From: Mesorhizobium sp. WSM4904
GTDB taxonomy: Bacteria; Pseudomonadota; Alphaproteobacteria; Rhizobiales; Rhizobiaceae
Direction: 5' to 3'
Assembly: GCF_029674545.1 (NCBI RefSeq)
Contig: NZ_CP121354.1
Span: 4,101,001-4,165,000 of the forward strand
Length of the DNA: 64,000 bases
Shown here: positions 3,144 through 10,659 of the stretch, one piece after another
Layout of the letters: each line of letters opens with the position of its first letter
Position numbering within the stretch: position 1 is the first letter of the stretch
Translations under genes and position numbers: made by a program
Notes under the pieces: generated by a model
Databases searched by the model: none
The model's input: the letters and a program-made list of their open reading frames with translations, nothing else
What the model was told of the DNA's origin: nothing

Positions 3144-4211
3144 ATGCACAAACGCCGCCTCGGTCGGACCGACCTCCTTGTTTCGCAAATCTGCCTGGGC
3201 TCGATGACCTGGGGCCAGCAGAACACCGAGGCCGAAGGCCATGCGCAGATGGACCTGGCTTTCTCGTACGGCGTGAATTTCATCGACACCGCCGAGCTTT
3301 ACCCGATTCCGCCGAAGGCCGAGACGCAAGGGCGGACCGAGAGGATCATCGGCAGCTGGATGAAGGCGAAGGGAAACCGCGACAAGGTCATCCTTGCCTC
3401 GAAAGTGGTCGGCCGCACCGCCAATGCCTGGTTCCGCGGCGACCGTCCGTCGAAGCTGGTGCGCGCCGACATCTTAGACGCGATCGAGAAGTCGTTGGCC
3501 AAACTCGGCACCGATTATATCGACCTCTACCAGATTCACTGGCCGGACCGAGATATTCCGTGGGGTTCGAACCCGACACGCGTCGGCGCGGTTGCACGGC
3601 GGGCCGACGCTGCCGGCGCGCCGGCGGGCGAGACGCCGATTGCCGAGACGCTCGCCGTCTTTGACGAACTGGTGAAGGCCGGCAAGATCCGCCATCTCGG
3701 CCTGTCGAACGAGAGTTCCTGGGGCGTCATGCGCTTCCTCGCCGAGTCCGACAAGGGTATCGGCCCGCGCGTAGCCTCGCTGCAGAACGCCTATAATCTC
3801 GTCAACCGCACCTTCGAGGTGAACCTGGCCGAGGTCTGCGAGCGCGAGCAGGTGTCCATGCTTGCCTATTCGCCGCTCGCGCAGGGCTACCTTACCGGCA
3901 AATACGACCACGGCGCGCGCCCACTCGGCTCGCGTTCGCAACTCTTCAACCGTGGACAGCGCTACGAGACGCCGAATGCCGCGGAAGTGCTGCTCGAATA
4001 CAATGAGCTGGCACGCTCCTTCGGCATGGAGCCGGCGCTCTTCGCCAATGCCTATGTGTCGAGCCGGCCGTTCGTGACCGCCAACATCGTCGGCGCAACA
4101 ACCGTCGCGCAGCTCGACACGGCGCTGTCCTCCGCCGAGGTCAGGTGGACGGAGGAGATGCAGAAGGCGGTCGACGCCATCCACCAGCGCGTCGGCAATC
4201 CCTGCCCGTGA
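3144..4211 (+). CDS. Aldo/keto reductase, Tas-like
   Basis: A 355-residue NADP(H)-dependent oxidoreductase of the aldo/keto reductase superfamily, predicted to fold as a cytosolic TIM barrel. The catalytic tetrad is visible: Asp48 and Tyr53 in FIDTAELYP, Lys87 in LASKV, His132 in QIHWPD. The opening MHKRRLGRTDLLVSQICLG and the long insert after WPDRDIPWG place it near E. coli Tas rather than the short AKRs. The natural substrate is unknown. The gene is followed after 31 nt by an aminotransferase class V gene on the same strand, so they are probably co-transcribed. Confidence 0.9.
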   Translation: MHKRRLGRTDLLVSQICLGSMTWGQQNTEAEGHAQMDLAFSYGVNFIDTAELYPIPPKAETQGRTERIIGSWMKAKGNRDKVILASKVVGRTANAWFRGDRPSKLVRADILDAIEKSLAKLGTDYIDLYQIHWPDRDIPWGSNPTRVGAVARRADAAGAPAGETPIAETLAVFDELVKAGKIRHLGLSNESSWGVMRFLAESDKGIGPRVASLQNAYNLVNRTFEVNLAEVCEREQVSMLAYSPLAQGYLTGKYDHGARPLGSRSQLFNRGQRYETPNAAEVLLEYNELARSFGMEPALFANAYVSSRPFVTANIVGATTVAQLDTALSSAEVRWTEEMQKAVDAIHQRVGNPCP

Positions 4212-4242
4212 CCGGAAATCATTGAGAAAAAGACAAGAGACG

Positions 4243-5511
4243 ATGGCAGATTTTCCGATCGGGGCCGTGCGTGAACGATTTCCGGCACTTTCGCTGACCG
4301 ACAGAGGCCGCCGCCGTATCTATCTCGACAATCCGGCCGGCACGCAGGTGCCGCAGGCAGTGGCGGGCGCGGTGTCGCGCTGCCTGCTGACGACCAATGC
4401 CAATCTCGGCGGGTTCTTCGAAACGACGGTCGCGGCGCAGCAAGTGGTCGACGACGTGCACGCGGCGATGGCTGATTTCCTCGGTGCGGCAAGTGTCGAG
4501 GAAATCGTCATCGGCGCCAACATGACGACGCTGACCTATCACATGTCGCGCACGCTCGGCCGCATGATGAAGCCGGGCGACGAGATCATCCTCACCCGCA
4601 TGGACCATGAGGGCAATGTCTCGCCCTGGCTGCAGCTTGCCGAGGACCTTGGTCTGGTCGTGCGCTTCCTGCCTTTTGACGAGCAGAGCTGGCAGGTCGA
4701 AGAAACGGCTCTTCAGGCGCTGCTTTCGGACAAGACGCGGCTGGTGGCGCTGAACTATGCCTCGAACCTCACCGGCTCGATCAACCGGGTGAAGGCGCTG
4801 ACGGCGATCGCCAAGCAGGCCGGCGCATTGGTCTATGTCGATGCCGTCCAGTTCGCGCCGCACGGGCTGATCGACGTGCAGGCGCTCGGCTGCGATTTCC
4901 TGGTCTGCTCGGCCTACAAGTTCTTCGGGCCGCATATAGGCATATTGTGGGGCCGCCGCGCCGTCATCGATACGCTGAAGCCTTACAAATGCCGCTGCTC
5001 GTCCAACGGCCTGCCGGAGCGGTTCGAACTCGGCACGCCGCAGATCGAGCTGATGGCGGGCCTCACCGCCGCTGTCGACTACTTCGCCGATCTCGGTGCC
5101 GCGGCGGGCGAGGACGGCTCGCGGCGGCAACAGATCGCGAGGGCCTTCGAGATGTCGGTCGCCTACGAGAATGCGCTCGCCCGGCAGTTGATCGAAGGCC
5201 TGGCCGACATCGATGGCCTGACCATCCGAGGCATCACCGATCCCGAACGCTTCAGCGAACGCGTACCGACAGTCTCTTTTACGGTCGACGGTGTCGCGCC
5301 GGAGACGATGGTGCGGCAGATGAATGCCGAAAACATCTTCCTGTGGTCGGGCCACAACTATGCGTGGGAGATCGTCCACCAGCTCGGCATCCCGCCGGAG
5401 CAGGGCGTCGTGCGCATCGGCATCGCGCACTACAACACGGCGGCCGAGATCGCCGAGACGCTGGACAGCGTGCATCGTGTGATCGCGATGCTGAGGCAGC
5501 AGCGCAGTTAG
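4243..5511 (+). CDS. Cysteine desulfurase-like class V aminotransferase
   Basis: PLP-dependent enzyme of fold type I, 422 residues. Lys226 in SAYKFFGPH is the expected Schiff-base lysine and Asp200 in VYVDAVQ the pyridine-nitrogen partner. The opening YLDNPAGTQVP and the motif NLTGSINRV match the cysteine desulfurase-like subfamily modelled on Vibrio VC1184, whose reaction is not firmly known. ATG at 4243 was taken as the start because an AAGAGA sequence precedes it; an upstream TTG at 4222 is possible. It converges with the deacetylase gene, leaving only 4 nt between the stops. No isc/suf neighbours, so a housekeeping Fe-S role is unlikely. Confidence 0.85.
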   Translation: MADFPIGAVRERFPALSLTDRGRRRIYLDNPAGTQVPQAVAGAVSRCLLTTNANLGGFFETTVAAQQVVDDVHAAMADFLGAASVEEIVIGANMTTLTYHMSRTLGRMMKPGDEIILTRMDHEGNVSPWLQLAEDLGLVVRFLPFDEQSWQVEETALQALLSDKTRLVALNYASNLTGSINRVKALTAIAKQAGALVYVDAVQFAPHGLIDVQALGCDFLVCSAYKFFGPHIGILWGRRAVIDTLKPYKCRCSSNGLPERFELGTPQIELMAGLTAAVDYFADLGAAAGEDGSRRQQIARAFEMSVAYENALARQLIEGLADIDGLTIRGITDPERFSERVPTVSFTVDGVAPETMVRQMNAENIFLWSGHNYAWEIVHQLGIPPEQGVVRIGIAHYNTAAEIAETLDSVHRVIAMLRQQRS

Positions 5512-5515
5512 AGAA

Positions 5516-6544
5516 CTATCGCTGCTTGCCGCCGAAGCCGGTCAGGAAAGCGGTGAGATTGTCACCGAGCGCATCGCAGAGATAGCCGCCTTCCTGGATA
5601 ATGACCGTCGGCAGGCCGAGCCCGGCAATCGCCTCGCCGATACGCGAGAAGCCGGGCGTCGTCACCGACAGCCCGCCGAACGGATCGCCTTCGAAAGCAT
5701 CGAGCCCGAGCGCCACCACCAGCGCCTCCGGCGCGAAGGCGCGGATGCGCCGGAAAGCCGTCGCCAGTGCTTCGAGGAACGCCGCGTCGGCGGATTTGCG
5801 CGGCAGCGGCAGGTTGAGATTGTAGCCGAGGCCTGCGCCTTCGCCGCGCTCGTCGGCATGTCCCCAGAAGAAGGGATAGAAGCGCACCGGATCGGCATGC
5901 AGCGAGACCGTCAGTATGTCGGGCCGGGCGTAGAAGATGCCTTGTGTGCCGTTGCCGTGATGCAGGTCGACATCGAGGATGGCGACCCGCGCCGCTTGCC
6001 TGCGCAGCGCCTGCGCCGCCACCGCCGAATTGTTGATGAAGCAGAAACCGCCGGCGACACCGGCGAAGGCATGGTGACCCGGCGGGCGGCAGAGCGCATA
6101 GGCCGACGTCGCGCCGGCCATGACGGCTTCGGCCGCCTCCACCGCGCTCCAGGCGCTCCACAACGCACTGTTCCAGGTCTCGGCCGAAATCGGGCAGGCG
6201 GTATCGGCCATATGATAGCCGGCCTGACCGACTGCCGAGGCCGGGTAGGAACCGTTGCGGGCGATCGGATGGATGTTGGGGATGACTTCGGCGGAAGCGC
6301 CTTCGATGCGCTGCCAGCGAGTGAAAATGTGCTCGAGGAAGTCGAGATATTCCGGCGTGTGTACCGCCGCGATCGGGCCGAGGCCATATTCTTGGGGCCG
6401 CTCGACCGTCAAACCAGCCGATCTTGCGCCGGCTAGCAATCTTTCGACCCGTTCCGGCTTTTCCGGATTGGGCTGGGGAGCGCCGCTGGAAAGGAAGGCC
6501 TTTGGGTCGTGGCGCTTCTGCTCCTCGGCATGGAAGGCTTTCAT
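5516..6544 (-). CDS. Acetylpolyamine amidohydrolase-like deacetylase (HDAC family)
   Basis: A 342-residue zinc hydrolase of the arginase/histone-deacetylase fold, predicted to deacetylate N-acetylated polyamines or similar amines. Zinc ligands Asp193 and His195 (DVDLHHGNGT) and Asp282 (GLDAFEGDP), catalytic His157-His158 (RPPGHHA) and Tyr321 (QEGGY) are all present. Length and spacing are close to those of the Mycoplana acetylpolyamine amidohydrolase as I remember them. The ATG at 6544 overlaps the stop of the upstream acetyltransferase gene (ATGA), implying translational coupling. It is the last gene of the five-gene minus-strand unit starting at 10659. The exact substrate is inference. Confidence 0.88.
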   Translation of the reverse strand: MKAFHAEEQKRHDPKAFLSSGAPQPNPEKPERVERLLAGARSAGLTVERPQEYGLGPIAAVHTPEYLDFLEHIFTRWQRIEGASAEVIPNIHPIARNGSYPASAVGQAGYHMADTACPISAETWNSALWSAWSAVEAAEAVMAGATSAYALCRPPGHHAFAGVAGGFCFINNSAVAAQALRRQAARVAILDVDLHHGNGTQGIFYARPDILTVSLHADPVRFYPFFWGHADERGEGAGLGYNLNLPLPRKSADAAFLEALATAFRRIRAFAPEALVVALGLDAFEGDPFGGLSVTTPGFSRIGEAIAGLGLPTVIIQEGGYLCDALGDNLTAFLTGFGGKQR

Positions 6545-7056
6545 CGTTCTTTCTCCGGCGCGTCGGCAAAGGCGAAGAAGGCCTCGCCGACGATCTTCTG
6601 CACCTGCTCGTAGCTCGACCAACCGATGCCGAGCTTTTCATAGAAGGTCTTGGCGGTCTCATTGTCCGTGTCGACGGAGAGCCTCAAATAGACGCCGCCT
6701 GCAGCGCGGCACTCCTTGGCCACCCGCCGCAGCAGTTTCTCGCCGATGCGTCGGCCGCGAAAGCGATCCTCGACGTAGAGATCCTGCACGAAGACGCCGG
6801 GCCGGCCCATCCAGGTCGAGAAGATCGGGAAATGCAGGCAGAGCCCGGCGAACTCGCCGTCGACCTCGGCGATCAGGGTCGAGAAGGCGGGCTTGTCGCC
6901 GAAGCCGTAGCGGCGCAGATCGTCAGCCGTCGAAGTGATTTCCTGGTGCGCGCCGATGTGGGTGCCAAGGCGCAGCAGGGCGGCGTGGATGGTTTCGACG
7001 TCGTCGATGGTGCCGGTGCGGAGCAGAATGTCGGTGGCCTGGATGTGCTGCCGCAT
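6541..7056 (-). CDS. GNAT acetyltransferase, spermidine/spermine acetyltransferase-like
   Basis: A 171-residue acyl-CoA N-acyltransferase. The acetyl-CoA loop is visible as RFRGRRIG (residues 98-105), followed by a helix, and Tyr139 in TFYEKLG is the likely general acid. Segments such as DLRRYGFGDKPAFSTLIAEV and the block around FVQDLYVEDRFRG align by eye with eukaryotic-type diamine acetyltransferases (SSAT/thialysine acetyltransferase). Its stop overlaps the start of the acetylpolyamine amidohydrolase-like gene, and DUF523 ends 3 nt upstream. A polyamine or related diamine substrate is inferred from both resemblance and context. Confidence 0.85.
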   Translation of the reverse strand: MRQHIQATDILLRTGTIDDVETIHAALLRLGTHIGAHQEITSTADDLRRYGFGDKPAFSTLIAEVDGEFAGLCLHFPIFSTWMGRPGVFVQDLYVEDRFRGRRIGEKLLRRVAKECRAAGGVYLRLSVDTDNETAKTFYEKLGIGWSSYEQVQKIVGEAFFAFADAPEKER

Positions 7057-7059
7057 CGG

Positions 7060-7569
7060 TCAGTCCGCATGTCCGCCGGCGTTGGAGCCGGTCAACAGAT
7101 CGTCAAGCTCGCCGATCCTGTCTTCGGAAAAGACACGGATACCGTTTTCCTCGAGCAGCGCGGCGGTCGTGCCTTGGCCAGCCATGCTGGCCCCTGAAAA
7201 GCTCCCGTCATAGATAAAACTGCTGCCGCATGACGGGCTGCCGTCCGTCAATACGGCATAGCGGCATCCGGTTTCCCGGGCGAGGTCGAGTGCCAGTTGC
7301 CCGGCTTCGCGGTAAAGGCGGGTGACATCGCTGCCGGTTTGCTCGATCACTCTGCCGTGGCCCAGCAGGACCGCATGGCCGTCGCCCGCGGCCTGGATTT
7401 CCGCAGGCGGACGCGGCGTCGAAAAACCTGCCGCAACCTCTGGACAGATCTGCACGATCCGGCCTTCCGACTGCCACCGCACCAGTACGGGATGGTGATC
7501 GAGCCGAAACGAGCCGTTGTAGCGCACCTTGCTTCCGAGCAGGCAGGCCGAGACAAGCACTCTCTCCAT
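7060..7569 (-). CDS. DUF523 family protein
   Basis: A 169-residue protein of DUF523, function unproven. Family hallmarks are the N-terminal SACLLG with Cys9, RYNG, the CPEV motif and DGSPSCGSSFIYDG with a second conserved cysteine, which suggest a thiol- or metal-based active site. It is the third gene of the minus-strand unit: 24 nt after the aminotransferase stop and 3 nt before the acetyltransferase start. The context hints at amine or amide metabolism, but nothing in the sequence proves this. Confidence 0.88.
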   Translation of the reverse strand: MERVLVSACLLGSKVRYNGSFRLDHHPVLVRWQSEGRIVQICPEVAAGFSTPRPPAEIQAAGDGHAVLLGHGRVIEQTGSDVTRLYREAGQLALDLARETGCRYAVLTDGSPSCGSSFIYDGSFSGASMAGQGTTAALLEENGIRVFSEDRIGELDDLLTGSNAGGHAD

Positions 7570-7593
7570 ATCGGCACCTCCCTCGGCGAGGGC

Positions 7594-8961
7594 TCAGTGA
7601 TTTACCGGCAGGTCAAGTTCGGCGGCAAGTGCCTCCAGCGTGTCGCCAAGCACCGCGATAATCTCGCCGATCTGTTTGCGGGTTGTGATCAAAGGCGGGC
7701 AGACCATGAAATTATCACTCACCGGCCCGCCGCGCACGCGCCGCGAGTAGATGATGAGTCCACGCTCGAAGGCAAGATCGATGAGCCGCAAATTGGCGTT
7801 GAGATTTTGTGGCAATGGCGTCCTGGCCAAGGGGTCGGCGTAGAGCTCCGCACCCATGAACAGGCCCTTGCCCCGCACGTCGGCAATGAAAGGAAAGCGA
7901 CCGGAGAGGACTTCAAGCTCGTTCCTCAGCACCTCGCCCATGGCAGCGGAATTCTCTATCAAGCCGAGGCGGTCGACTTCGCTGAGAACAGCAAGGCCCG
8001 CAGCGCAGGCAACAGGGTTGCCGCCATATGTATGGCCGTGAAGGAACCCGCCGTTCTCAACCACCGGCCCGACGATCCTCTGTGTCGCGGCAAGCGCGCC
8101 AAGCGGTGCGTAGCCTGAACTCAGCCCCTTCGACAACGCGACGATATCCGGCCGGCAGGACCAGTGATCGCCGCCCAGAAATTTGCCGGTGCGTCCGATG
8201 CCAGTCATCACCTCGTCGTGGATAAGCAGAATGCCATAGCGATCGCAGATTTCACGAATTCGCGGAAAATAGCTGTCGGGCGGAACCAGTGCCGCGGTCG
8301 CGGCGCCGCCAATCGGCTCCATAATGAAAGCGAGCACGCTTTCCGGCCCTTCCTCCAAGACCTTTTCTTCCAGCATATTGGCGTAGCGAACTCCTCGCTG
8401 CTCCATCGACAGATTGTCGTGGTCGCGATGAACAAGCGGGGCCGGCACCAAAGGCATTGGCCGCCCGACCGGGTCGAATGTCTTGGTAAGGATATCATCG
8501 CCAGTGACGGCAAGCGTGCCGAGCGTGATGCCATGATAGGAGGGCATACGTCCGATGATTTTCCAGCGGTTTTCCTGACCTGTTGCAACGGCCCATTGTC
8601 GCGCGAGCTTGATGCAGGCCTCGACCGCCTCAGAGCCGCCCGATACAAAATAGATACGGTCGAGCCCGTTCGGAAGTCGAGCGGCGAGCCCCCGCGCAAG
8701 TTCGATGGCCTGTTCGTTCTCAAATTGGAAGATGTAGGCGAAGCTGACGCGGTCCAGCTGCCGCTTCATCGCATCGATGACGTGGCGATTGCCGTGACCA
8801 ACATTGACGTTGACCGCGCCACTCGATCCGTCGATGTAGCGGCGGCCGCTCTTATCCCACAGATAGATGCCGTCAGCGCGGTCCACGATTGGCTGGGGCC
8901 GCCGCGTGAAATGGAACAGATTCGGTCGGCGGTCGGTTTCGACGGACTGCACAGCGCTCAT
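7594..8961 (-). CDS. Class III aminotransferase (aspartate aminotransferase family)
   Basis: A 455-residue PLP enzyme of the omega-amino acid/diamine transaminase class. The Schiff-base lysine is Lys278 (DIVALSKGLSSGYAPLGA), Asp249 (LIHDEV) contacts the pyridine nitrogen, and SGGSEAVE near residue 107 binds phosphate. Enzymes of this class transfer amino groups from terminal amines (putrescine, beta-alanine, taurine) to pyruvate or 2-oxoglutarate; which one applies here cannot be read from the sequence. Its ATG directly follows the stop of the dimethylformamidase-like gene (TGAATG, no gap), so the two are almost certainly translated together. Confidence 0.92.
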   Translation of the reverse strand: MSAVQSVETDRRPNLFHFTRRPQPIVDRADGIYLWDKSGRRYIDGSSGAVNVNVGHGNRHVIDAMKRQLDRVSFAYIFQFENEQAIELARGLAARLPNGLDRIYFVSGGSEAVEACIKLARQWAVATGQENRWKIIGRMPSYHGITLGTLAVTGDDILTKTFDPVGRPMPLVPAPLVHRDHDNLSMEQRGVRYANMLEEKVLEEGPESVLAFIMEPIGGAATAALVPPDSYFPRIREICDRYGILLIHDEVMTGIGRTGKFLGGDHWSCRPDIVALSKGLSSGYAPLGALAATQRIVGPVVENGGFLHGHTYGGNPVACAAGLAVLSEVDRLGLIENSAAMGEVLRNELEVLSGRFPFIADVRGKGLFMGAELYADPLARTPLPQNLNANLRLIDLAFERGLIIYSRRVRGGPVSDNFMVCPPLITTRKQIGEIIAVLGDTLEALAAELDLPVNH

Positions 8962-10659
8962 TCACCCTCTCTCGTCTCGGCCAAGGTAGCGGTCGAGAAC
9001 ATTTTTGGTCACGCGTTCGACCATCGCGTCCTGCCTTAGCAGGCCGGCGACCCACTCGCAGCTTCCGGCGTGGAAGACCTCGCCCTTGCCGCGCGGGAAA
9101 TTGACGATCATGCCGTTGCCGCGCTTGACCTTGTCGAGATTGGCGTCGCTCGCCTCGCCGAACAAAGTCTCGGCGGTGAAGCGGCCGTCCTCGTCGGTGA
9201 GGAACTGGTCCTCGATCGGGATGTCGGCGCTTTCCTCGACTTGGCTCGCCATGCCGACGGCGAGCACCTGCAAGCCGTCCGGCGCGCCGCTCTGCGCGGT
9301 CGGGTAGGGCAGGCCGCCGCGGATCTCGAAGTCCAGCCCGTCGACCTCATAGCCATAGACGTGGCTGTCGGCGCCGAGCAGGTCGCCATAATAGACGCCG
9401 GTGCCGGCGAAGGCCCAGTGCTCCGGCCGATAGACCGGGAAGCCGCGCACGCCGCGCGGCGCGCAGCCGCCCCAGCCGGCATAGACGCCGCGCGTTGCAT
9501 TGAGGCCGAAGGTGGCGCTGCCCGGACGGCCGATCTCCGGCGCTTCCCAGGAGTTGGTGGCGCGGGTGACATCGCCGTCGCGATAGGCGGGATCCTCGGC
9601 GCGGGCGCGGTACTTGTAGCAGACTTGCCGGCGGCCCTCGTCCTCCAGCCTGGTCTGCCACATGAAATTGCCGGCGAAACGGGCGGCACGACCGCCGCGC
9701 TCGACATAAGCGTCGACCGCGTCGCGCATCTCCCAGGTCCAGTATTCGTCGTGGCCGACGAACGCGACGCAGTCATAGCCGTCGAGGATCTCCGGCGAGA
9801 AATGCAGCTCGTGCTGGCTGGCGAGATCGACCGCATAGCCGGCGCGCTCGGCGAAGCGGAAGAAATGGCTGTCGTAGCTCGCCCAGCCGGAAGAGGCGTA
9901 TTTCTTCGAATGTCCTGTGGCGAAGGCCCATTCCATATGCGGATAGCGCGGCACGGTTCTCGGCGGCACCGCGACCTCCAGCGGCACGCGCGGCGCTTCC
10001 TTCGGCAACACGACGAAGCCGCGGCACCAGGGGCGCTGCGTGGAGACCATCGTGGCATACTGGTCGCGGTTCGGGCCGGTGATGCCCTGGTAATGGTTCG
10101 AACCGCCCCAGGTATTGTAGGCCATCCAGGTGCCGGTCGCCGCGACCTGCAGCAGGCGGCCAGGCTTGCGGCCGGGCAGGGGTGCGACGATGAAGAGGTG
10201 GTGGCTGTGGATCGGCTCGCCGTCACGGCCGTCCGCCGAGAGCGTCACGCGATAGGCGCCTGACGGCCAGTCGTCGCCGACGCTGAGCTCGAACGAAGCC
10301 TCCCAGCCGCAGCCTTCGACCGAGCATTGGTCGGGCGTATCCTGCCAGCGCGCCGACAGGCCCGTTCCCTCAAAGACCTTGGTCTCGTCTCCACCATCGC
10401 GGACGACAACGATGTCGAACCGCGGCGACGTCGAGCTGACGAACAGCGTCACCGTCTCGCCCGGTCGATAGGAAAATCGGTCGCTGTAGCCCCAGATCTC
10501 GCCGCTCGCGCCGTCCATTCCCGGCCACTCGTAATAGTGGCCGCGCACGGCCTCGCGGCGCTGCTCGGGCGTCAGCCCGAAATCGGGAAATTCGGCGGGC
10601 AACTGCGTCAAGAAGCACCTGAAACCAACAGGCCGCCATTGAGACCATTGGCCGGGCAA
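8962..10659 (-). CDS. N,N-dimethylformamidase large (beta) subunit-like protein
   Basis: A 565-residue protein matching the large subunit of bacterial N,N-dimethylformamidase. The N-terminal beta-rich domain contains WGYSDRFSYRPGETVTLFVS; the large C-terminal domain contains MAYNTWGGSNHYQG, FVGHDEYWTWEMRDAV and GNFMWQTR. Dimethylformamidase cleaves amide C-N bonds and normally needs a small subunit, none of which is seen nearby, so the true substrate may differ. No signal peptide is visible. The start is uncertain: TTG at 10659 gives the longest form, while an internal TTG giving MTQLPAEFPDFGLT has an AGGTG in front. It is the first gene of the five-gene unit. Confidence 0.82.
   Translation of the reverse strand: MPGQWSQWRPVGFRCFLTQLPAEFPDFGLTPEQRREAVRGHYYEWPGMDGASGEIWGYSDRFSYRPGETVTLFVSSTSPRFDIVVVRDGGDETKVFEGTGLSARWQDTPDQCSVEGCGWEASFELSVGDDWPSGAYRVTLSADGRDGEPIHSHHLFIVAPLPGRKPGRLLQVAATGTWMAYNTWGGSNHYQGITGPNRDQYATMVSTQRPWCRGFVVLPKEAPRVPLEVAVPPRTVPRYPHMEWAFATGHSKKYASSGWASYDSHFFRFAERAGYAVDLASQHELHFSPEILDGYDCVAFVGHDEYWTWEMRDAVDAYVERGGRAARFAGNFMWQTRLEDEGRRQVCYKYRARAEDPAYRDGDVTRATNSWEAPEIGRPGSATFGLNATRGVYAGWGGCAPRGVRGFPVYRPEHWAFAGTGVYYGDLLGADSHVYGYEVDGLDFEIRGGLPYPTAQSGAPDGLQVLAVGMASQVEESADIPIEDQFLTDEDGRFTAETLFGEASDANLDKVKRGNGMIVNFPRGKGEVFHAGSCEWVAGLLRQDAMVERVTKNVLDRYLGRDERG

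Follow-up and report, generated by a model that had tools for sequence, protein, structure and literature searches.

Five genes of Mesorhizobium sp. WSM4904 and a candidate alphaproteobacterial module for the catabolism of a beta-amino acid bearing a second amine

The five-gene locus and its relatives

We have analysed a stretch of 64,000 nucleotides from Mesorhizobium sp. WSM4904 (NZ_CP121354.1, positions 4,101,001 to 4,165,000; hereafter the window), whose genome is a single contig of 6.65 Mb. The subject of this work is a run of five minus-strand genes which an earlier note on this DNA had described as tightly joined, at 0, 24, 3 and -4 nt, and had assigned to families suggestive of amine and amide metabolism. 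The structure is confirmed, all frames being intact and free of internal stops, and the family assignments are recovered with Pfam. The five genes are:

8962..10611, minus strand: dimethylformamidase-large-subunit-like iron amidohydrolase (DMFA2 family), 549 amino acids (aa); Pfam DMFA2_C, 1.8e-67; alternative start at 10659
7594..8961, minus strand: class III aminotransferase of a divergent type, 455 aa; Aminotran_3, 6e-91
7060..7569, minus strand: DUF523/TudS-like protein, 169 aa; PF04463, 2-thiouracil desulfurase/DUF523, 2.1e-40
6541..7056, minus strand: GNAT acetyltransferase of the SSAT2/thialysine-acetyltransferase kind, 171 aa; Pfam GNAT, 1.9e-14
5516..6544, minus strand: histone-deacetylase-family amidohydrolase (hereafter the deacetylase), 342 aa; Pfam histone deacetylase domain, 1.9e-76

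The deacetylase starts at 6544, with an ATG overlapping the GNAT stop, and not at 6622, where the longest open reading frame begins. The amidohydrolase frame has a TTG at 10659 and a second TTG at 10611, and it is at residue 1 of the 10611 version that alignments with its relatives, many of them 546 aa long, begin. Ratios of nonsynonymous to synonymous divergence (dN/dS), taken pairwise against up to ten relatives, range from 0.05 to 0.35, and we thus consider all five genes to be under purifying selection. The GC content of third codon positions is 0.706 for the aminotransferase and 0.724 for DUF523, with the other window genes at 0.784-0.856.

Conservation was followed in two sets of loci (L-numbers denote fetched loci, G-numbers searched genomes). 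Set 1 holds the best 80 of 402 loci with a relative of the operon's first gene, nearly all of them titled Mesorhizobium; the amidohydrolase is present in every one because it was the search anchor, and three loci end at a contig boundary before the GNAT gene, so that counts are given for 77 uncut loci. Set 2 holds 30 aminotransferase loci outside these 80, which were collected by means of three separate anchors and do not count as independent. Neighbours are not shuffled among the relatives and the same order recurs across the 77 uncut loci, which bears out the idea that the genes form one conserved unit: amidohydrolase, aminotransferase, GNAT and deacetylase follow one another, with or without DUF523 and a beta-keto acid cleavage enzyme (BKACE; DUF849) between them, in 76 of the 77, and the deacetylase was likewise found in 76 (the exception is L042). 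GNAT adjoins the aminotransferase in 77 of 79 set-1 loci and in 18 of the 30 set-2 loci.

Many relatives carry more than the window does. In 47 of the 77 uncut loci a BKACE gene separates the aminotransferase from GNAT, a thioesterase occurs in 17 (the one in L054 being a partial match at another place) and the binding protein of an ATP-binding cassette (ABC) transporter in 16, and all 16 transporter-bearing loci also carry both BKACE and the thioesterase. The full form reads, in order, thioesterase, LysR, binding protein, two permeases, ATPase, amidohydrolase, aminotransferase, BKACE, (DUF523), GNAT and deacetylase; its transporter is of the amino-acid ABC type, with a solute-binding protein resembling a generic polar amino acid binder. 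Given these fuller clusters among its relatives, the window operon appears to be a reduced form.

The unit also occurs outside Mesorhizobium. Ensifer adhaerens and Sinorhizobium chiapasense carry the full cluster on plasmids (unannotated records, in which genes were assigned by tblastn), and Pararhizobium qamdonense has LysR, amidohydrolase, aminotransferase, BKACE, GNAT and deacetylase. Shinella plasmids bear the transporter, aminotransferase, BKACE, GNAT, deacetylase, LysR and thioesterase with no amidohydrolase gene in the stretch seen, and the same holds for a record named Roseateles which is flagged as unverified. One Phyllobacterium has aminotransferase, BKACE, GNAT and deacetylase, and two other Phyllobacterium records the deacetylase alone. 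Since aminotransferase, GNAT and deacetylase co-occur on plasmids of other genera with different flanks, the gene set travels as a unit.

Convergent to the module, at 3144-5511 of the window, lie a cysteine-desulfurase-like gene (TIGR01976) and an aldo-keto reductase gene, which are kept in most of the 80 loci. As module parts these two were rejected, for they were not found in the stretches seen of Ensifer, Pararhizobium and Shinella. Their retention would fit the view that unrelated genes have simply stayed together by chance in Mesorhizobium; the recurrence of the module with other flanks in Ensifer, Pararhizobium, Shinella, Phyllobacterium and Rhodobacterales contradicts it, as does the swapping of steps for unrelated enzymes of like function (see below), and we regard chance linkage as extremely improbable.

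Beta-keto acid partners and the proposed route

In set 2 the aminotransferase is accompanied by BKACE in 23 of the 30 loci and by a 3-oxoacid coenzyme A (CoA)-transferase in five, never by both; two loci have neither (L181, and L133 with a remnant), and a thiolase was seen in three of the five CoA-transferase loci (L139, L140, L207). For the deacylation step a histone deacetylase (HDAC)-family enzyme is encoded in 21 loci, an ArgE/DapE deacylase in six, both in none and neither in three (L203, L205 and L208, the last of which is near a contig end). The combinations mix, BKACE being found with the HDAC-family deacetylase in 19 loci and with ArgE/DapE in two, and in two Rhodobacterales records the aminotransferase stands with 3-oxoacid CoA-transferase, thiolase and ArgE/DapE deacylase in place of BKACE and deacetylase. 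GNAT is present in 18 loci of this set, the amidohydrolase in eight and the thioesterase in six. A search of 385 alphaproteobacterial genomes with the aminotransferase gave 19 positives at E <= 1e-150, the window genome among them; seven further contexts were fetched and, in total, 15 of the 18 other positive genomes were viewed in context. In the aminotransferase-only sample of 15 contexts a beta-keto acid step is found in 14 and a deacylase in 12. Four control BKACEs from outside the module (66-71% identity) have no module partner within 5 kb (0/4).

Glu171 and Arg254 of BKACE are named as catalytic in the excerpted text of PMC11961710, and the equivalents of E171 and R254, together with the His pair of the HLHAR motif, are present in 70/70 BKACEs of the loci. 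Unrelated enzymes, BKACE or CoA-transferase, would take a beta-keto acid on to the acyl-CoA behind one and the same aminotransferase. This is the strongest sign that the aminotransferase makes a beta-keto acid, which it probably does from a beta-amino acid. Its presumed pyridoxal phosphate lysine, K278, is kept in 108/108 copies, and no NCBIfam model names it above cut-off among the best 25 of 69 matches; we propose that it may act as a beta-transaminase for an N-acetylated diamino acid. Traces of BKACE were noticed at three further loci: a 133-aa 'hypothetical' in the BKACE position of Rhizobium sp. CB3171 (L133:9100-9498) is a decayed, internally shortened copy, and L023 and L038 hold short possible C-terminal remnants.

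Work of the Barker laboratory in the 1970s-1980s reportedly established that Pseudomonas degrades beta-lysine by N6-acetylation, beta-transamination, acetyl-CoA cleavage of the beta-keto acid, release from CoA and deacetylation to 4-aminobutyrate; to our knowledge the enzymes of this route are known as activities and no genes have been assigned to them. The full modules contain, for every one of these steps, a gene from a suitable family, and genes for all five lie in one cluster in Shinella (L132, L137), in L136 and in Ensifer/Sinorhizobium (L105, L142); at the window locus the set is incomplete, with no cleavage or thioesterase genes there. The two systems differ in that there are activities without genes in the one and genes without activities in the other, and in that the amidohydrolase, a flavin adenine dinucleotide (FAD) oxidase and a racemase are extra here.

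The reading we favour, with a confidence a little above even, is that the five genes represent a reduced version of an alphaproteobacterial module that degrades a beta-amino acid with a further amine; beta-lysine, N-epsilon-acetyl-beta-lysine or an N-acyl derivative is the most likely substrate. In such a route the ABC transporter, which is not encoded at the window locus, would import the substrate and, when this comes acylated, the iron amidohydrolase would release the beta-amino group from its amide, a role which would account for that gene being optional. The GNAT enzyme would acetylate the side-chain amine, because the unmasked keto product would close on itself (an unprotected 6-amino-3-oxo acid forms a cyclic imine), and the aminotransferase would convert the beta-amine to the beta-keto acid, which for beta-lysine would be 6-acetamido-3-oxohexanoate. 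BKACE with acetyl-CoA, or CoA-transferase with thiolase in other bacteria, would cleave this to the acyl-CoA (4-acetamidobutyryl-CoA), the thioesterase would free the acid, and the deacetylase would take off the acetyl group to give 4-aminobutyrate. In the window strain the cleavage and thioesterase steps would be carried out by enzymes encoded elsewhere, such as a second BKACE.

Parts of this scheme have parallels in known pathways. Carnitine degradation has the pairing proposed here, of a BKACE that turns a beta-keto acid into an acyl-CoA and a thioesterase that then releases the acid, without an aminotransferase, acetyltransferase or deacetylase. Ectoine degradation resembles the module in that a deacylase (the DoeB deacetylase) and an aminotransferase (DoeD) act on an N-acetylated diamino acid; unlike it, the chemistry is that of alpha-amino acids and neither BKACE nor an HDAC-family enzyme takes part. 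An M20 enzyme in L130 is a distant relative of DoeB2 (154.8 bits against a cut-off of 550).

More tentatively, and at somewhat less than even confidence, we suggest that these clusters could be the missing genes of bacterial beta-lysine degradation and follow a protecting-group logic, in which GNAT masks the side-chain amine and an HDAC-family enzyme changed for a carboxylate-bearing substrate unmasks it. There would be two versions built from unrelated enzymes (BKACE or CoA-transferase/thiolase; HDAC-family or ArgE/DapE), and the iron amidohydrolase, which would open N-acyl-beta-amino acids, would be an addition made in rhizobia. The logic of aminotransferase, BKACE and deacetylase would survive another beta-amino acid as substrate; the beta-lysine assignment would not. 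If true, genes would be in hand for activities known for decades (N6-acetyl-beta-lysine transaminase; 4-acetamidobutyrate or 4-acetamidobutyryl-CoA deacetylase), proteins of the histone deacetylase and dimethylformamidase families that now bear family names only would gain a metabolic role, and common soil and marine bacteria would be able to feed on beta-lysine. Beta-lysine is a part of streptothricin-type antibiotics, and N-acetyl-beta-lysine is described as a methanogen osmolyte in the excerpt of PMC4685198. Searches of the open-licence PubMed Central (PMC) literature aimed at this gene combination or at beta-lysine catabolism listed no paper which, judged mostly from titles and the beginnings of abstracts, describes genes for beta-lysine catabolism or such a cluster.

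Substrate-binding residues and rival substrates

The deacetylase has its best PDB matches in 3men (7.1e-105) and in acetylpolyamine amidohydrolases, and those of Mycoplana ramosa and Pseudomonas are matched over their full length (E 1e-79 to 3e-89) with catalytic residues in common. H157, H158, D191, D193, D282 and Y321, which we take to be the His pair, zinc-site Asp residues and Tyr that serve catalysis and metal binding in acetylpolyamine amidohydrolases, are present in 95/95 copies (the zinc-ligand His beside D193 lies outside the count). As given in excerpts of PMC11532494 and PMC5454378, Glu106, Glu117 and a PIS motif are polyamine or specificity features of the Mycoplana enzyme, with Glu106 not universal, since it is His in the active relative PsApaH. 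In the module E106 is replaced by valine (V105; 92/95) and E117 by alanine or serine (A116; Ala 89/95, Ser 6/95), and the window copy has PFG for PIS. R221, whose position in the sequence suggests that it lines the substrate tunnel, is found in 94/95 deacetylases which share a locus with the aminotransferase, as against 4/12 of those which do not (one of the 12 is gapped). A module-specific R221 and the loss of the polyamine residues together point to an anionic substrate end, as in 4-acetamidobutyrate, and we propose that the enzyme may catalyse the final N-deacetylation of an acetamido acid.

Of the amine/amide route suggested in the earlier note, the part which stands is the grouping of amide hydrolysis and transamination with acetylation and deacetylation. 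Its further reading, a salvage of polyamines or N-alkylformamides whereby an amine set free from an amide is acetylated, deaminated or deacetylated, agrees with the nearest characterised relatives of the deacetylase, with the putrescine and polyamine aminotransferases which are (by their titles) among the PDB relatives of the aminotransferase, and with a transporter of polyamine (PotB/PotD) type in 8 of the 30 set-2 loci. It was rejected as the main explanation, and we think it quite improbable, because it leaves BKACE, or CoA-transferase and thiolase, without a role and because the polyamine-binding residues just described are missing; moreover, the conserved set contains no aldehyde dehydrogenase, the only one noticed lying 3.9 kb beyond LysR in Rhizobium CB3171.

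The profile of the iron amidohydrolase matches dimethylformamidase (PDB 6lvb, 2.7e-21) and N-acetyl-(R)-beta-phenylalanine acylase (8i5a, 2.6e-20), and its weak AlphaFold model (predicted local distance difference test score 62.6, predicted template modelling score 0.69) matches the acylase best (2e-13), then dimethylformamidase (1e-11). The Paracoccus N,N-dimethylformamidase has, in the excerpt of PMC7686228, the iron ligands Y399, Y440 and E521 and catalytic H519 and N547; the window enzyme shares this site of two Tyr and one Glu with catalytic His and Asn, the equivalents Y165, Y174, E289, H287 and N315 being invariant in 30/30 and 87/87 sequences (the correspondence of Y440 to Y174 was mapped by eye via an intermediate homologue). 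It differs in length, with 549 residues against 775, and in its neighbours. A small subunit is required for activity of the Paracoccus enzyme, according to the same excerpt; no small-subunit gene lies beside the window amidohydrolase, which is flanked by the aminotransferase gene and a gene for a ParB-N domain protein, and the search did not extend to the rest of the genome. The acylase (PDB 8huy, 8i59, 8i5a; known by titles) belongs to the same family and is also longer, at 772-776 residues. We propose that the amidohydrolase may hydrolyse N-acyl-beta-amino acids or beta-aminoacyl amides. Farther paralogues have other neighbours: in Dinoroseobacter (L104:9502-13644) and Shinella (L110:6489-10602) they follow a large CoA transferase gene and a divergent regulator gene, and in L125 (6757-10775) a 753-aa full-length dimethylformamidase-type protein adjoins a shorter paralogue of the window enzyme.

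For GNAT the best PDB match is 12jc, a thialysine acetyltransferase (1.3e-16), and none of its 16 NCBIfam matches gives a name above cut-off; AblB, which we take to be the model for beta-lysine acetyltransferase, is not among them. Side-chain N-acetylation is proposed as its function.

The additional genes of set 2 deserve attention in this respect. In other alphaproteobacterial families (L179, L180, L182, L186-L189) the aminotransferase, BKACE and deacetylase are joined by a PotB/PotD-type transporter and a DAO-family FAD oxidase, and in L179 and L182 by a RidA-like protein, which occurs in three of the 30 loci overall; the PotB/PotD assignment is a resemblance below the NCBI naming cut-offs. 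A module with the same pathway logic might serve another N-acylated or diamino beta-amino acid, such as beta-ornithine or an aromatic one, or one linked to a D-amino acid that would be handled by the racemase or FAD oxidase of some loci. The naming of the amidohydrolase's characterised relative as an N-acetyl-(R)-beta-phenylalanine acylase favours this, and alanine racemase with M20 amidohydrolase (L130, L139, L140) and the DAO-family oxidase hint at a D-amino acid part; on the other hand, GNAT and a deacetylase of side-chain type indicate a second amine, and beta-lysine is the common natural case of a beta-amino acid with one. We judge such a substrate rather unlikely.

Several observations weigh against the beta-lysine module which we prefer. 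Its reactions and substrate are all deduced, from observed gene content, order, conservation, replacements and site residues. BKACE is not at the locus in 30 of the 77 uncut relatives, the BKACE match of L143, counted among the 23, is in pieces, and GNAT was not found in 12 of the 30 set-2 loci; the window locus itself is without BKACE, thioesterase, LysR and transporter genes. Plain beta-lysine degradation has no need of the DAO-family oxidase (9/30), of alanine racemase with M20 amidohydrolase (3/30) or of a PotB/PotD-type transporter in place of the amino-acid one (8/30). These extra transporter, oxidase, RidA-like and racemase genes mean that the imported compound, or a part of it, may exceed beta-lysine in complexity, and with such a transporter a cationic amine substrate may apply. 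By sequence profile dimethylformamidase stands slightly ahead of the beta-phenylalanine acylase, and the fold matches of the amidohydrolase can be only supporting because its AlphaFold model is of low confidence. Finally, a deacetylase search of the 385 genomes gave 61 positives at E <= 1e-110, and 12 of the 20 contexts fetched have no aminotransferase of >50% identity, so that the deacetylase family is wider than the module.

Deacetylases were also seen in other settings. G353 encodes deacetylase and aminotransferase apart from each other (L178, L205). A second recurrent grouping is seen in L131, L193, L194 and L195, where a deacetylase of the same kind lies near an ArgE/DapE deacylase and a peptide-type ABC transporter, without the aminotransferase; this deacylase is 53-57% identical to the ArgE/DapE deacylase of the aminotransferase clusters, and the pair adjoins in L131 and L195 and is divergent and ~7-8 kb apart in L193 and L194.

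The reduced form in the window strain

The window clade differs from most of its relatives in two genes of the operon. Its aminotransferase is of a divergent type, which in the tree is common to 11 of the 77 uncut loci and (at 78%) L117, the usual type being closer to the outgroups. Compared with L002 the window aminotransferase is 69-70% identical, as against 97% for the amidohydrolase and 96% for the deacetylase, as if a divergent homologue had taken the place of the original gene at this position. DUF523, which matches the TudS structure 6z92 (8.7e-36) and PF04463 above cut-off, is found in 14 of the 77 uncut loci. Its synonymous divergence (dS) to L006, L008, L009 and L025 is 0.10-0.21, against 0.37-0.61 for the other four genes, and is higher elsewhere (0.43 to L031, 1.04 to L036 and L037); the low values to four of the seven loci compared suggest recent spread among some strains. 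On these grounds DUF523 was rejected as a pathway enzyme, and the earlier note's inclusion of it as a step of the module gives way to what looks like a recently inserted passenger.

No operon-type BKACE, defined by at least 85% identity, is present in the window genome, where the best relative of that enzyme is 59% identical and encoded far from the operon. Among 61 congeneric genomes the operon type was found in 39 (the G690 copy has an internal stop) and the amidohydrolase gene in 59, the other two, G682 and G688, also having no operon-type BKACE. A second BKACE (59-65% identity) is present in 20/20 congeners with the amidohydrolase but no operon-type BKACE, versus 21/39 with the operon type, giving a Fisher p of 0.00017, or 0.00055 if G682 and G688 are kept (21/22 vs 21/39), in tests which ignore phylogeny, a further point against our reading. 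This distribution fits a second BKACE serving as a backup that permitted loss of the operon copy. For the transporter, there is no close copy of the ATPase elsewhere in the window genome, the best among 10 matches listed being 58% identical.

With four functions missing, the aminotransferase swapped and DUF523 added, and purifying selection nevertheless acting on all five genes, the operon of the window clade might have been repurposed, merely stripping nitrogen from, or detoxifying, a beta-amino compound such as a natural product containing beta-lysine. The second BKACE kept in all 20 of those congeners suggests that the later steps are still done, and we consider repurposing unlikely. In the window genome this second BKACE is at L111:8610-9542 (G000:C1:2864612-2865529), a few kb from genes which by eye resemble those for DNA primase and the main sigma factor.

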